Origin: Fidelibacterota bacterium
Lineage (GTDB): Bacteria > Fidelibacterota > UBA8477
Direction of reading: 5' to 3'
NCBI GenBank assembly: GCA_021734045.1
Contig: JAIPJR010000055.1
Location: 1-19,853 of the forward strand
Length of the DNA stretch: 19,853 nucleotides
The translations under genes and the position numbers were made by a program. The notes beneath the pieces were generated by a model. It was not told the origin of the DNA and ran no database searches. It worked only from the letters and a program-made list of their open reading frames with translations. How positions within the stretch are numbered: the first letter of the stretch is position 1; the number at the start of each line of letters is the position of its first letter. Positions 1,898 to 13,383 of the stretch are shown in pieces.

Positions 1898-3430
1898 TTA
1901 TTCCCCTGTAAATTTATGCCACAAATTACCCACGATAAGGGTCACACTGCTGCCGATAAGTGTGTACCAGGTCCAATTCACCAAGGCCGGTTTTCCCAAA
2001 ATCATGGGAATCAGGATAATGAGTAACATCACGGCAATGCCGGTGCTAAAGCCCACGATGGCACTGGTTTGTTTGGGTCCTTTAAACAGCACACCCAGTA
2101 AAAATGTCCCCAGCAAACCGCCGTAGGTGATACTGGCAATGCCCAGTGCAATTTCCACCACCGATGCCAGGACATTGATAAATAACAGCGCCACCGCCGA
2201 TAAAATCACCGCCCAGAAAATCGTCAGCATTCTGGAAGCCCACAAATCCTGCTTATCGGTAGTATTTTTCCCGAAATAGGGTTTGTATAAATCCATCATG
2301 GCCGATGAAGAGAGCGAACTCATACTGCCGGCCAGTGTGGACATGGCCGCCGCAAACAACCCGGCGATGATAATGCCCTTTACACCCGTGGGCATGTAAT
2401 TGATAATGAAGTAAGGGAAAATTTCATCCGCCTTGTGGAAGGGTGCCGCAGCCGCACTCATATCCACACCTTTGAGCTGGAAAAACACATAAAGCAGAAC
2501 GCCAACAACCAGAAACAGGGCAAACTGGAACATCACCATTACACCGCTGCCGATGAGCGCCTTCTGGCTGTCTTTGAGCGATCGGGTTGTCAGTAATCGC
2601 TGCACGATCAACTGGTCCGTTCCATGGGATGCCATGGAGAGGAATGTACCACCGATGAGCGCGTTGATGAGGGTGTAGGGTTGGCGGAAAAATTCACCAA
2701 TACTATTGCCGAAATCGAAATTAAAGACCTTGAATTTGTGCATGGGTCCTGCCACGTCGCGCACCGTTTGCCAACCATCGGGCAGGGAGTTTAGGATAAG
2801 AATACCGGCCAGAATCGCACCGCCGATATAAATGGTCATTTGAATCACATCCACCCAGATAATGCCCTTCATACCACCAGTGTAGGTATAGATCAGCGTC
2901 ACAATGGCAATAATTACGATAGAAAGGACATAGATCTCCATGTTGGACCATTCAGCGAAAAATGCCGACGTTTTAAAAATCACTGCAATGGGAATGGCCG
3001 TTGCAAACAGCCGTACACCATCCGCCGCTACCCGGGTAAACAAAAACACGGTGGAGGCATAGCTGCGGGTCTGATGCCCGAAACGATTTTCCAGTAAATG
3101 GTAAGCTGTACTCAAATTCCCCTTCTTATAAGCCGGCAGAAAAATGAAGCTCACAATCACCCGGGCGATTAAATACCCAATCGTAAGTTGGAGAAAAGTC
3201 AGGTCGGTCACATAGGCCAGACCGGGAATGCTGATAAAGGTCAGCGTGCTGGTTTCAGCCGCCACAATGGCAAAAGTCACCGCCCACCAGGGGATATTGG
3301 AGCCACCCATGAAGTAATCTTTAATGGTACGCTGTTTTCCTCCGGAAAAACTCCCAATGACAGCAATCACCACCAGGTAGCCCACCAGAATAATAATGTC
3401 CAATGTCTGAAAACCGCTATTCTCCAGCAT
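1898..3430 (-). CDS. Sodium:solute symporter (SSS/SLC5 family)
   Basis: The product is a 510-residue polytopic inner-membrane transporter of the SSS family, which couples Na+ entry to uptake of sugars, amino acids or related solutes. Visible family traits: an N-terminal GYLVVIAVIGSFSGGK helix followed by KDYFMGG, the AAETSTLTFISIPG unwound first-core helix (57-70), YHLLENRFG (110-118), the YTYTGGMKGIIWVDVIQ block (181-197), GTDQLIVQRLL (270-280), and the Ser-rich AGSMSSLSSS stretch (367-376) where the Na2-site serines fall in the family. The start is chosen between adjacent ATGs: AGGAGG (3435-3440) is only one base from ATG 3433 but four from ATG 3430. It lies 33 bases downstream of the AmpG-like gene on the same strand, so the two are probably co-transcribed. 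The substrate is not determinable; the neighbour suggests a cell-wall sugar. Confidence 0.9.
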   Translation of the reverse strand: MLENSGFQTLDIIILVGYLVVIAVIGSFSGGKQRTIKDYFMGGSNIPWWAVTFAIVAAETSTLTFISIPGLAYVTDLTFLQLTIGYLIARVIVSFIFLPAYKKGNLSTAYHLLENRFGHQTRSYASTVFLFTRVAADGVRLFATAIPIAVIFKTSAFFAEWSNMEIYVLSIVIIAIVTLIYTYTGGMKGIIWVDVIQMTIYIGGAILAGILILNSLPDGWQTVRDVAGPMHKFKVFNFDFGNSIGEFFRQPYTLINALIGGTFLSMASHGTDQLIVQRLLTTRSLKDSQKALIGSGVMVMFQFALFLVVGVLLYVFFQLKGVDMSAAAAPFHKADEIFPYFIINYMPTGVKGIIIAGLFAAAMSTLAGSMSSLSSSAMMDLYKPYFGKNTTDKQDLWASRMLTIFWAVILSAVALLFINVLASVVEIALGIASITYGGLLGTFLLGVLFKGPKQTSAIVGFSTGIAVMLLIILIPMILGKPALVNWTWYTLIGSSVTLIVGNLWHKFTGE

Positions 3431-6167: not shown

Positions 6168-6262
6168 CGTCACTCTGAATTTACTTGCCGAGCCGAAGCT
6201 CCGCGAAGGCTGGTTTCAGGGTCTTCGGACGGATTAAGATGCTGAAATGAATTCAGCATGAC
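6168..6262 (+). repeat. CCCTGAA/TTCAGGG palindromic repeat, copy A1
   Basis: Two nested palindromes are visible: ACTCTGAAT ... TTTCAGGGTCTTC around a core with CCGAAG and GCGAAGGC, then ATGCTGAA-ATGAA-TTCAGCAT, a perfect eight-base-pair hairpin ending GAC. A second copy lies at 7050-7113, sharing GAATTTAC.TGCCGAGCCGAAG and CCGCGAAGGCTGGTTTCAGG. A decayed third copy lies at 12907-12978. Confidence 0.75.
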
Positions 6263-6273
6263 TGGGTTGCCTT

Positions 6274-6308
6274 TTTAGAGAAAGTGGAAAGTTGAAAGAG
6301 GAAGAGAA
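6274..6308 (+). repeat. Purine-only tract repeat (TTAGAGAAAG...GAAAGAG), copy A1
   Basis: TTTTTAGAGAAAGTGGAAAG leads a nearly pure A/G strand. Further copies at 6424-6456, 6570-6600, 12408-12442 and 12578-12594 begin with the same TTTAGAGAAAG or TTAGAGTAAGAGAAAG. These tracts sit at the joints between other repeat modules in both islands. Confidence 0.7.
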
Positions 6309-6387
6309 AGTGCGGGTCGAACACGAGCAGGAGATTTGAGATTGTTGTGCCGCAGATAACGCAGATATAGCCCCAGTACTGATTATT

Positions 6388-6420
6388 CTCCCCTTTTTAA
6401 GGGGAGACACAGAGGGGTTG
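6388..6420 (+). repeat. CTCCCC...GGGGAG hairpin repeat, copy A1
   Basis: CTCCCCTT-TTT-AAGGGGAG is a perfect eight-base-pair hairpin followed by ACACAGAGGGGTTG. It is the variant form of the repeat at 6537-6569 and 12544-12575, with a different loop but the same GAGGGGT(T)G tail. Confidence 0.7.
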
Positions 6421-6532
6421 TCCTTTTAGAGAAAGTGGAAAGTTGAAAGAGAAAAAGGCAGTTATCCACTGAGATCGCAGAGCGTGCGCAGAGAACACAG
6501 AGGTGAAATTAATCTCCGGCCGTCGTTCTAAG

Positions 6533-6600
6533 AAATCTCCCCTTGAGGGGAGAAAAAGAGGGGTGTTGTTTTAGAGAAAGAGGAAAGAGCAAGAGTAAGA
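6533..6600 (+). repeat. CTCCCC-TTGA-GGGGAG hairpin plus purine tract, copy A2
   Basis: The hairpin (6537-6552) is followed by AAAAAGAGGGGTGTTGTTTT and a purine tract. About 50 bases from AAATCTCC to AGAGAAAGAG match 12540-12590 in island B, differing by a single extra T there. This is the longest nearly exact match I found between the two islands. Confidence 0.8.
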
Positions 6601-6706
6601 GTCCGTCTTCGTCCGGCAACTACCGGACTACGCCGCGACAAGAAAGAAGAAAGGAATCCCGGCGGGATGTCAGATGCGTAGCCCCGGGTTTTAGACCGGG
6701 GGAATT
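6600..6706 (+). repeat. GTCCGG...CCGGAC and CCCGGCGGGA...CCCCGGG hairpin module, copy A
   Basis: The first half (6600-6655) holds hairpin GTCCGG-CAACTA-CCGGAC and the string ACGCCGCGACAAGA. The second half (6655-6706) holds ATCCC-GGC-GGGAT, then GATGCGTAGCC and a hairpin CCCCGGG...CCGGGG. In island B the two halves are separated: the first is at 12445-12498, the second at 12594-12645. Confidence 0.75.
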
Positions 6707-6727
6707 AAAAACCCCTGCAAATAATCA

Positions 6728-6769
6728 GGTTTTATCCCAACAACGCTTGTGAATTGTTGGGGAAAAACC
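6728..6769 (+). repeat. Long hairpin GGTTTT..CCCAACAA / TTGTTGGG..AAAACC
   Basis: Arms of 16 bases pair with two mismatches around the ten-base loop CGCTTGTGAA. I found no copy in island B. It is not followed by a T run. Confidence 0.6.
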
Positions 6770-6785
6770 GAGCACGTGACCTACT

Positions 6786-6825
6786 CCCCGGTTGGCTCCC
6801 TCACTTCATCGAGGGGCAACCGGGG
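6786..6825 (+). repeat. Long GC-rich hairpin CCCCGGTTG / CAACCGGGG
   Basis: The outer nine base pairs are perfect. An inner stem (GCTCCCTC with GAGGGGC, imperfect) continues it around the loop ACTTCATC. No copy was found in island B. Confidence 0.6.
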
Positions 6826-6906
6826 CCAGATAAAAAAGAAAACCACAACCCGGATGAAGTGAAGGGATCTCGCCGGCAAACTGCAATCGCTGGGCTGATG
6901 CAAAAA

Positions 6907-7034
6907 TTAGCACCACAATTCATTGTGGTGGTCGCTGATAAACGGTTAAAACCGTTTGTGTTACTTGACGGGTAACCGGATCACCCGAATAAATTCGGGT
7001 GCTAATTTTTCCAAGAGACAATCAAACCGTTCTA
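6907..7034 (+). repeat. Three-hairpin TTAGCACC...GGTGCTAA repeat, copy A
   Basis: In order: TTAG, hairpin CACCACAAT-TC-ATTGTGGTG (6911-6930), hairpin AAACGGTT-AA-AACCGTTT (6940-6957), GTGTTACTTGACGG, hairpin CACCCGAAT-AA-ATTCGGGTG (6982-7001), CTAA, and a trailing ATCAAACCGTTCTA. The TTAG and CTAA ends are complementary, so the unit can fold as a closed three-arm structure. A second copy is at 12761-12895. Confidence 0.8.
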
Positions 7035-7049
7035 AGCCTGGTGACACAG

Positions 7050-7113
7050 CCACCCTGAATTTACATGCCGAGCCGAAGCCCCGCGAAGGCTGGTTTCAGG
7101 GTCTTCTGAGCTG
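7050..7113 (+). repeat. CCCTGAA/TTCAGGG palindromic repeat, copy A2
   Basis: CACCCTGAATTTACATGCCG through GGTTTCAGGGTCTTCTGAGC closely matches 6168-6228 but lacks the second ATGCTGAA hairpin. It directly follows the three-hairpin repeat, as the decayed copy does in island B. Confidence 0.75.
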
Positions 7114-7114
7114 A

Positions 7115-7150
7115 CGGGGACGAGAATGGGTACGAGTAGGAGCACGAGAA
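7115..7150 (+). repeat. CGAGNACGAG-type repeat, copy A
   Basis: GACGAGAATGGGTACGAGTA then GGAGCACGAGAAC. Related tracts occur at 6313-6335 (CGAACACGAGCAGGAG) and 12658-12682 (CGAGTACGAGCACGAGCACG), again next to the same neighbouring modules. Confidence 0.55.
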
Positions 7151-7206
7151 CAAACCCTGCGGGTCACCCAACAACATTTGACACAAGAAAATTTTCTTTT
7201 CACCCC

Positions 7207-7237: not shown

Positions 7238-7285
7238 GGTTATTGTTGCCAGGGAAATGCGTCCCGAATCAACAGGAGGATGAAA

Positions 7286-8041
7286 GTGAAATTAACGGTG
7301 AAACAGTTATCGCAAACAGCCGGCATCAGCATTCGGACGCTGCATTACTATGATGAAATCGGATTGCTCCATCCCGCTGAAACCGGTAAGAACGGCTATC
7401 GCTATTACCACGAAGCCAATCTATTGCGTCTGCAGCAGATCATGTTTTACAAGGAACTGGGACTGCCACTGGAGAAAATCGGGGAGATCCTGGACGATCC
7501 CCATTTTGATACCCTTCAGGCGCTACAGGAACACAAGGTAGCCCTGCAGCAGAAATTTCACCGTATCCAGTCACTCATTGCCACCGTGGAGAATACCATT
7601 AAACATGTTGAAGGAGAGAAAATCATGACCAAGCACGAGCTATTCAAAGGCTTTAGCAGTAAGGAAGAGGAACGGAAGGTTCAACAGGAGGCGGAAAAAC
7701 GCTACAATCCTGAGTTGGTGAAACAATCCTATCGCAACTGGAATAGTTATTCCGATGATGAAAAAACCGCCATTATGGACCGGGGGAACGAGATTTTCCG
7801 CAAGATTGCCGAATCCATGGAGCAGGGTATTGACTCACCGGCGGTTCAAGAGCAGGTAGATGCCTATTTCCAGTACATCAATACCTACTATTACGATTGT
7901 TCATTGGAAATTTTCCGTGGTCTGGGCAGCCTGTACGTAGACAGTCCCGACTTCCGTGCCAATTTCGATAAAATGCATCCGGACCTGGCACCTTTTTGCC
8001 GGGATGCGTTTGCTCATTACTGCGACGCGCGGGAGAAATAA
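7286..8041 (+). CDS. MerR family regulator with TipAS ligand-binding domain (TipA/Mta type)
   Basis: The product has 251 residues. It is a cytoplasmic transcription activator that untwists a 19-bp-spaced promoter on ligand binding. Residues 3-71 are a MerR winged helix-turn-helix (TVKQLSQTAGISIRTLHYYD, then GYRYY and LRLQQIMFYKELGLPLEKI). Residues 75-110 form the dimerisation coiled coil. Residues about 118-251 are a TipAS domain (FKGFS opening; YYYDCSLEIFRGLGSLYV and FRANFDKMHPDLAPFCRDA), which in TipA binds thiopeptides and in Mta or SkgA senses other drugs or stresses. I chose GTG 7286 over ATG 7280 because AGGAGG (7274-7279) abuts the ATG but is six bases from the GTG, and MKLTVKQL is a typical MerR opening. 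No efflux or resistance gene is next to it, so its other targets are unknown. Confidence 0.88.
   Translation: MKLTVKQLSQTAGISIRTLHYYDEIGLLHPAETGKNGYRYYHEANLLRLQQIMFYKELGLPLEKIGEILDDPHFDTLQALQEHKVALQQKFHRIQSLIATVENTIKHVEGEKIMTKHELFKGFSSKEEERKVQQEAEKRYNPELVKQSYRNWNSYSDDEKTAIMDRGNEIFRKIAESMEQGIDSPAVQEQVDAYFQYINTYYYDCSLEIFRGLGSLYVDSPDFRANFDKMHPDLAPFCRDAFAHYCDAREK
7611..7627 (+). promoter_or_regulatory. Internal ribosome binding site and start for a TipAS-only product
   Basis: AAGGAG (7611-7616) lies eight bases before an in-frame ATG at 7625, exactly at the junction between the coiled coil and the TipAS domain. Initiation here would give a 138-residue ligand-binding domain (7625-8041) with no DNA-binding part. 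Streptomyces tipA is known to make TipAS this way from an internal start. Confidence 0.6.
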
Positions 8042-12407: not shown

Positions 12408-12540
12408 TAGAGTAAGAGAAAGAGGAAAGAGAGAAAAAAGAAAGCGTCCGTTTTCATCTGACAACTACCGGACGACGCCGCGACAAGAGAGAAGAAAGAG
12501 AAAAAGGCAGTTAACCACCGAGACCACAGACCGTGACATA
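12408..12540 (+). repeat. Island B modules: purine tract, CCGGAC half-module, CGAGACC repeat
   Basis: A purine tract (12408-12442) is followed by GTCCGTTTTCATCTGACAAC, TACCGGACGACGCCGCGACA and AGAGAGAAGAAAG, the counterpart of 6600-6655. Then AGAAAAAGGCAGTTAACCAC and CGAGACCACAGACCG match the string at 6450-6479. The left arm of the CCGGAC hairpin has decayed (ATCTGA instead of GTCCGG). Confidence 0.7.
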
Positions 12541-12645
12541 AATCTCCCCTTGAGGGGAGAAAAAGAGGGGTGTTGTTTTTAGAGAAAGAGAAAAAAATCC
12601 CGGCGGGACGTCAGTTGCGTAGCCACGGGATTTATCCCGGGTGAT
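12540..12645 (+). repeat. Island B modules: CTCCCC hairpin, purine tract, CCCGGCGGGA half-module
   Basis: CTCCCC-TTGA-GGGGAG (12544-12559) with its GAGGGGTGTTGTT tail is followed by AGAGAAAGAG and then AATCCCGGCGGGACGTCAG. The following hairpin, CACGGGAT-TT-ATCCCGGGTG, has different bases from the island A version (CCCCGGG...CCGGGG) but keeps the ability to pair. Confidence 0.75.
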
Positions 12646-12657
12646 AGAGAATCCATT

Positions 12658-12730
12658 ATCCGAGTACGAGCACGAGCACGAGACCTACCTGTCATCCCGA
12701 CCGTAGCGAAGCGAAGCGGAGGGATCTCGG
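12658..12730 (+). repeat. Island B modules: CGAGCACGAG tract and GTAGCGAAGCGGAGGGATCT unit
   Basis: CGAGTACGAGCACGAGCACG is followed by GTCATCCCGACCGTAGCGAA, GCGAAGCGGAGGGATCTCGG. The second unit corresponds to GATGAAGTGAAGGGATCTCG at 6853-6872 in island A. In both islands it directly precedes the three-hairpin repeat. Confidence 0.6.
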
Positions 12731-12760
12731 GCTGCAAACCGAAAGCGTTGTTTTATAAAA

Positions 12761-12895
12761 TTAGCACCACAATTCATTGTGGTGGCTCCAACATCCATTG
12801 TAAACGGGGAAACCGTTTGTGTTACTTGACGGAATACCGCACCACCCGAATAAATTCGGGTGCTATTTTTCCCAGGAGACCATCAAACCGTTCTA
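12761..12895 (+). repeat. Three-hairpin TTAGCACC...GGTGCTA repeat, copy B
   Basis: Same layout as 6907-7034. Hairpins one (12765-12784) and three (12843-12862) are identical to copy A. Hairpin two is AAACGG-GGAAA-CCGTTT (12802-12818) in place of AAACGGTT-AA-AACCGTTT, so the loop changed and the stem was kept. GTTTGTGTTACTTGACGG and ATCAAACCGTTCTA are shared single-stranded parts. Confidence 0.8.
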
Positions 12896-12906
12896 TTGCC
12901 ATTGCC

Positions 12907-12978
12907 GCTGCCACCGTCCCCCTGATTCGCTTGCCGCTCCGAACCCCTGCGAAGGCTGGTTTTCCGGGTCTGGGTCAG
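12907..12978 (+). repeat. Decayed CCCTGAA/GGTTTCAGGG repeat, copy B
   Basis: CCGCTGCCACCGTCCCCCTG, TTGCCGCTCCGAACCCCTGC and GAAGGCTGGTTTTCCGGGTC align with the copies at 6168 and 7050 but with many substitutions. It occupies the same place after the three-hairpin repeat as copy A2. Confidence 0.5.
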
Positions 12979-13116
12979 CCACGACACCGTGCGTTTTTAC
13001 TTTTTAAAAAAGACGACCTGCTTAACTTCCCGCGGTTGAACACCAAAATCCCGCACCGCTTTGCTCTGCGGCTTTTGCCAGCTGGTTATGCAAATGTTAG
13101 CCGCATAGGAGGACGG

Positions 13117-13383
13117 ATGGCAGCAGAGGAATCAAATCTGAGACGCCCCAGATATTCGATGCCCGGCTTTGTTAAGCAAGCGCTTGAGGAGCATCGGTTG
13201 ATGGCTGAATATCAAAAACGGCCGGCGTACCAGCAAAACGACTACATTGGCTGGATAAACAGAGCAGAACGTCAAGAAACGAAGGAAAAGAGGCTGCACC
13301 AAATGCTAGAAGAGCTTGAAAAGGGTGGCGTTTACATGAATATGGCGCATCCCCCATCAAGAAAGAACAAGAAGGGGGAATAA
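13117..13383 (+). CDS. Small YdeI/OmpD-associated-family-like protein
   Basis: The product has 88 residues. ATG 13117 is chosen because AGGAGG (13107-13112) lies four bases upstream; the same frame is open far upstream only through repeats. After a short polar start the sequence has a helical pattern, FVKQALEEHRLMAEYQKRPA, then NDYIGWINRAERQETKEKRL and a Lys-rich tail. The [YF](I/V)xWIxxAxxxETRxKR core is that of the C-terminal helical part of YdeI/OmpD-associated proteins (PF13376), here without the longer N-terminal domain usual in the family. Biochemical function is unknown. It is followed after five bases by a truncated RidA-like gene, suggesting a former two-gene unit. Confidence 0.7.
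   Translation: MAAEESNLRRPRYSMPGFVKQALEEHRLMAEYQKRPAYQQNDYIGWINRAERQETKEKRLHQMLEELEKGGVYMNMAHPPSRKNKKGE

Follow-up and report, generated by a model that had tools for sequence, protein, structure and literature searches.

Two repeat copies in intergenic mosaics

The window, a 19,853-nt stretch of a Fidelibacterota bacterium assembly (GCA_021734045.1, contig JAIPJR010000055.1), contains two copies of a hairpin-rich repeat, each found between divergently transcribed genes and upstream of both. Copy 1 (6903-7009, + strand) lies in a repeat mosaic spanning 6264-7166 and adjoins a gene for a TipAS-type MerR regulator (7280-8041). Copy 2 (12757-12871, + strand) lies in a homologous mosaic at 12436-12975, likewise between divergently transcribed genes, and adjoins an OmdA-domain ORF (13117-13383). 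The mosaics are composite. A second repeat family, a TAG-tagged CCCCGGG-type hairpin, is present at 6678-6732 and recurs in similar mosaics elsewhere (C62:7775, C50:5604, C65:6726, C115:26760 and C31:7311), and further intergenic repeats are found at 6171-6262, 7051-7109, 7130-7150 and 12690-12730, among them CGTC-type-like palindromes (TTCAGGGTCT...TTCAGCATGAC, GGATCTC) and GAGTACGAG runs.

Copy 1 opens with the tag TTAG (6907-6910) and hairpin B' (CACCACAATTCATTGTGGTG, 6911-6930), both on the + strand, and continues with hairpin A (AAACGGTTAAAACCGTTT, 6940-6957), a linker of 24 nt that contains TTACTTGACGG (6958-6981, - strand) and is conserved in length and not in sequence, and hairpin B (CACCCGAATAAATTCGGGTG, 6982-7001), which together with a reverse-strand TTAG tag (7002-7005, CTAA as written) occupies 6982-7005 on the - strand. 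In copy 2, the TTAG tag and hairpin B' (12761-12784, + strand; hairpin at 12765-12784) are followed by a central hairpin, AAACGG-GGAAA-CCGTTT (12802-12818), and by hairpin B (12843-12862) with its tag, which reads CTAT on the + strand (together 12843-12866, - strand). The first and third hairpins, CACCACAATTCATTGTGGTG and CACCCGAATAAATTCGGGTG, are identical between the two copies, just as the initial annotation had it. Its description of a shared TTAG and three hairpins also stands, but the common CTA(A) closing ends and the span assigned to copy 1 do not: copy 2 closes with CTAT and therefore has the weaker closing stem, and copy 1 ends near 7009 rather than 7034 because its complementary ends are AAAATTAG (6903-6910) and CTAATTTT (7002-7009).

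Both copies fold far better than shuffled sequence. As DNA their z-scores are -5.7 (copy 1) and -4.6 (copy 2), with 0 of 200 shuffles equally stable for either copy, and as RNA they are -5.5 and -3.0. The three-arm fold proposed earlier is predicted for copy 1 as DNA, where AAAATTAG and CTAATTTT close a multi-arm structure, but not as RNA, for which the minimum free energy structure of 6903-7010 is a single long hairpin with B' paired to B; the arms 6899-6933 and 6979-7013 are 80% complementary.

Folding of this kind could also reflect a structured RNA or a transcription terminator, selected in the transcript. The RNA folds beat their shuffles, and in two relatives (G009 and G015; L010, L011) hairpin-B-like palindromes followed by T-runs lie downstream of genes at apparently corresponding positions. 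We nevertheless consider this explanation very unlikely. A search of Rfam with the element gave no match, a terminator is not expected upstream of two divergent genes, where both window copies are found, and the hairpins vary little within the genus, with no covariation.

Deletion derivatives of a four-hairpin element

The genome to which the window belongs, a 2.5-Mb Candidatus Marinimicrobia-related MAG that is 92% complete, carries five copies, four of them near-full (C19 twice, C65 and C62) and one truncated (C115), and copies are also found in two congeneric genomes, G001 (a sister species) and G002. Comparison of these copies reveals a less-deleted, four-hairpin form, B'-A'-A-B, in C65 and C62 of the window's genome and in C262 of G002, with the hairpins B' (CACCACAATTCATTGTGGTG), A' (AAACCGTTTCAACGGTTT), A (AAACGGTTAAAACCGTTT) and B (CACCCGAATAAATTCGGGTG). 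Read in this way, the four-hairpin element is two inverted units, each consisting of a TTAG tag, the 20-nt hairpin B, a linker of ~24 nt and the 16-18-nt hairpin A; in C65 the two units occupy opposite strands at 2080-2147 (+) and 2168-2233 (-). By the same comparison the window copies are internal-deletion derivatives in which one A hairpin has been lost. One deletion that removes A' is common to copy 1 and three G001 copies, four copies in two species, so the three-hairpin form was itself copied.

The initial annotation had taken the central hairpins of the two window copies to be compensated versions of one stem, which would be evidence of selection on pairing. They are not homologous base for base. 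Judging by C65, C62 and C115, slippage best explains how copy 2 came by its central hairpin. A deletion between two AAACCGTTT repeats, one being the left arm of A' and the other the right arm of A, would leave a left arm derived from linker sequence and a right arm derived from an A'/A fusion (C115 CGATCGGGGAAACCGTTTC versus 12761 AAACGGGGAAACCGTTTG). On this reading the apparent compensation provides no evidence of covariation. The TTACTTGACGG of the linker, described before as a conserved single-stranded segment, is kept among close copies only, and C62 and the G002 copy have other sequence in its place. Aligned across the genus, hairpins B' and B show no change at 37 of their 40 columns, the 24-nt linker at 6. 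At this depth the stems are conserved and vary little, and there is no covariation.

The sister-species site and the spread of copies

The aroQ-MerR intergenic region of G001 is orthologous to the site of copy 1, with a 98% match upstream and an 86% match downstream of the block, and there window 6264-7166 is replaced by a 75-nt filler. An empty site in a relative, one of the observations proposed at the outset, therefore exists for the mosaic and not for the element alone: what was gained or lost is the entire 0.9 kb. For copy C65 there is no usable synteny across the site in G001 or G002, and a clean insertion of one element by itself was not observed for any copy: they are embedded in larger mosaics with partly shared flanks, and segmental copying may therefore have spread some of them.

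Some copies also have integron sequences close by. Contig C115 of the window's genome encodes a complete integron integrase (TIGR02249, 480 bits, over the cut-off) at 26928-28106, ~170 nt downstream of the truncated copy; related intI-upstream sequence comes after the copies in G001 C84, in C62 and at window 12761 (window 12975-13045), and an attC-like site is visible in G001 C84.

These surroundings raise the possibility that the element no longer moves by itself and is a passive passenger of intergenic blocks of 0.5-0.9 kb, whose spread would be due to recombination, to gene conversion or to the neighboring integron platform. Several copies share flanks over 50-200 nt, the two window mosaics are homologous over long stretches, the entire 0.9 kb is missing at the sister site, and the intI-upstream segment adjoins some copies. 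The G002 copy shares little flank, however, and passive spread leaves unexplained both the match to units flanking transposase genes and the gene-less family of another genome, which are described below. We regard such spread as possible but doubtful, although it may apply to the most recent copies in the window's genome; it bears on the recent history of the copies and does not conflict with the origin of the element in transposon ends that we favor.

Two-hairpin units flank Y1 transposase genes in relatives

We gathered Y1 loci from 30 relatives and examined 45 tnpA loci (~137 kb) alongside 62 kb of control loci. Two-hairpin units are found near the gene at 13 of the 45 Y1 loci, or at 9 under stricter criteria, and these 13 loci, which belong to the same order and phylum, yield 55 unit readings, one unit being readable from either side. 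No such unit is found in the 62 kb of control loci, and shuffled sets contain ~0.05 per set. Each unit consists of a 5' tag, a 20-nt hairpin (9 bp, with a TTYA-type loop), an interval of ~19-28 nt and a 16-18-nt hairpin. The tags are mostly NTAR, and GTAG is found mainly in the L020 family. The units are arranged as B'A'-[tnpA]-AB with constant geometry, most clearly at L063, L077 and L055. Since like units lie on both sides of tnpA genes and in both orientations, the case for a structured RNA is weakened further.

The Y---Q--HH signature is present in all flanked genes with a readable motif and is invariant in an eight-member alignment, and the HuH motif is also present. All six flanked transposases that were tested score over the IS200 cut-off of NCBIfam and under the REP-associated one (REP_Tyr_transpos, 21-38 bits versus 80). 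Y---Q--HH is the signature of TnpA subclass 1.2, for which neither a REP nor, in general, typical IS200 end structures are recorded (Quentin et al. 2018, PMC6006769). Taking subclass 1.2 as assigned by motif signature, a little-studied transposase family recorded without such repeats appears to have them after all.

Between the element and the tnpA ends found in the order, for example at L076 in G013, structure and part of the sequence are in common; the exact cognate was not found. Nor did we find a Y1 gene flanked by exactly this element in the window's genome (92% complete), in G001 or in G002. The Y1 gene sought from the start thus did not turn up in this form in the window's genome, where the two Y1_Tnp genes found carry other palindromes on their flanks and were rejected as the cognate enzyme; units of this type flank Y1 genes in other genomes. 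Of the three Y1 genes of G002, L053/L117 and L075/L119 show YVESQGKKY as their motif, without the HH signature, and are free of units, and the third, L118, which is cut by a contig end, adjoins L020-type units and not units of this element.

A model built from transposase flanks recovers the element

A covariance model, R1, was constructed from 12 units flanking tnpA genes of other genomes, none of them from the window's genus. When R1 is run over the whole 2.5-Mb genome, the nine best hits are units of these elements in the predicted opposite orientations (best E 6e-10). In copy 1 the unit at 6940-7005 (-), which comprises hairpins A and B, scores 56.2 bits (E 2e-9, whole genome) and is paired in inverted orientation on the opposite strand, with a short spacer, with 6907-6957 (+), which scores 31.9 bits. 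The corresponding units of copy 2, at 12810-12866 (-) and 12761-12818 (+), score 37 and 32.6 bits, respectively.

The same model bears on whether the hairpins could be palindromes of a widespread stem type that arose by chance or are peculiar to the lineage, with no tie to a transposase. Short palindromes are common in such genomes, and hairpin B alone is widespread, but paired units of fixed geometry are missing from control loci and rare in shuffles, and a model made from tnpA flanks ranks the elements first genome-wide. We consider a chance origin extremely improbable.

In 26 units from ten loci, both sides of hairpin B change in seven of nine pairs. The covariation score is 0.82; shuffles reach 0.15, and sliding gives no more than 0.19. 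The hairpin is 99% paired (28-53% when slid), a value that is partly built in because units were picked for near-perfect pairing, which does not apply to the shared loop and tag. Hairpin A fell into different registers in the all-family MAFFT alignment, and for this reason A was modeled from the AACCGTT group only and covariation was counted on hairpin B only. These substitution patterns indicate that hairpin B covaries strongly across transposase families with its geometry kept. The covariation that the initial annotation proposed to test for is thus missing from the genus alignment, and the signal emerges across families. The compensated hairpin put forward for a unit selected for folding falls away, real covariation being seen in the comparison across transposase families.

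A gene-less family in another genome

A scan with the 20-mer of hairpin 1 gave hits in MAGs of Bacteroidota, KSB1, Calditrichota, Ignavibacteria, Neomarinimicrobiota and one Eremiobacterota (submitters' labels), and one match in viral contigs. The Eremiobacterota-labeled MAG (G060; JAIORV, 5.6 Mb) contains at least 140 R1 unit hits, with 150 of 2934 candidates scored, and of the loci that were read no fewer than 15 are gene-less and of the form B'A'AB; genome-wide counts of adjacent pairs are undercounts at this fraction scored, and the locus reads are the better basis. These elements measure ~165-290 nt and have complementary outer tags around GACA. The genome has 12 Y1 genes, four of which have an R1 unit within 500 nt, and all four are among the five genes scoring >79 bits.

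The gene-less elements of G060 match both ends of the L288 tnpA element (76-82% over ~87 nt and 79-81% over ~67 nt) and one end, including the linker, of the L208 and L296 tnpA elements (84-87% over ~78 nt). As judged from these alignments, this is the relation expected between gene-less derivatives and a gene-bearing element, and ends common to gene-less and tnpA-carrying elements, the criterion for a MITE, are found in the G060 family. At L269, L154, L168 and L261, 17-24-nt tandem units, each a tag and one hairpin B arm, are stacked outside the elements; they look like repeatedly duplicated ends and are absent from the window copies.

Interpretation

The repeat is very probably a non-autonomous, REPIN/MITE-like mobile element in which both ends of a Y1 (HUH) tnpA transposon are joined face-to-face as B'A'-AB with the gene missing. 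Five lines of sequence evidence converge on this interpretation: the anatomy of the copies, the like ends at tnpA loci, the covariation across families, the multicopy gene-less elements of another genome and the mosaic missing at the sister site. The suggestion of a non-autonomous, REP/Y1-associated element in the initial annotation is upheld, with paired hairpin units flanking Y1 genes in related genomes and forming gene-less families elsewhere. The history of the element would include cleavage at the tag, mobilization as a single strand and loss of the cognate tnpA. In the window's genome the family is small and probably relict, as suggested by its deletions, its low copy number and the lack of a cognate tnpA among the genes found.

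By analogy with the known biochemistry of IS200/IS605 elements and RAYTs (PMC6006769, with general background), a subclass 1.2 IS200/IS605-like Y1 transposase would bind the hairpins once the DNA is single-stranded, at replication forks, and would cut at the tags, after which the folded strand would be excised or inserted. An evenly balanced proposition is the broader one that subclass 1.2 TnpAs act on a two-hairpin end, conserved in geometry and covarying in sequence in several phyla, and sustain gene-less populations, and would thus represent a distinct class of single-stranded DNA mobile elements between IS200 and REP/RAYT. The units are candidate DNA substrates for a transposase subclass with none recorded so far, their anatomy provides a rule for finding such substrates, and the mechanism is open to in vitro test with short oligonucleotides. 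Intergenic palindromes in Marinimicrobia, Bacteroidota, KSB1 and other MAGs may likewise be the ends of transposons, and not RNA elements or repeats that lack an explanation.

Comparison with known systems

Among documented systems, the palindromic repeats of the CGTC/GTAG type and their TIRYT transposases (PMC3733652) resemble the element in forming dimers with spacers, some of which contain small stem-loops, and in having Y1 genes between inverted repeats; in the parts of that report available to us, the constant-geometry two-hairpin unit is not among the palindrome families described. With IS200/IS605 elements and their MITEs it shares a Y1 HUH transposase over the NCBIfam IS200 cut-off, subterminal hairpins and gene-less derivatives with similar ends. 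It differs from them in its two hairpins per end and complementary outer tags, and in that the tnpA genes here are few and diverse per genome, rather than many near-identical copies. The flanked transposases share Y---Q--HH with TnpA subclass 1.2, but, unlike that subclass as recorded (PMC6006769), they have two-hairpin units, at 13 of the 45 Y1 loci.

The closest comparison is with REPINs and BIMEs and their RAYT (TnpAREP) transposases (PMC3116915, PMC2817692, PMC6006769). Like these, the element is a gene-less, intergenic, inverted palindromic pair with a 5' tetranucleotide tag, its units also flank a Y1 gene elsewhere, and, as in a REPIN, the whole can form one long hairpin or separate arms. 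In contrast to REPINs and BIMEs, a unit here contains a pair of hairpins separated by ~24 nt instead of a single one, and its tag is of the NTAR type (TTAG in this genome), not the canonical GTAG/GTGG; unlike RAYTs, the flanked transposases fall below the REP_Tyr_transpos cut-off of NCBIfam and carry Y---Q--HH. The five copies in the window's genome contrast with the high copy number typical of REPINs, and Y1 genes flanked by such units were found in other genomes and not in this one. Because the GTAG tag, the copy number and the same-genome cognate gene all fail, the element is a variant and not a strict REPIN; in its workings it is like a REPIN or an IS200-derived MITE.
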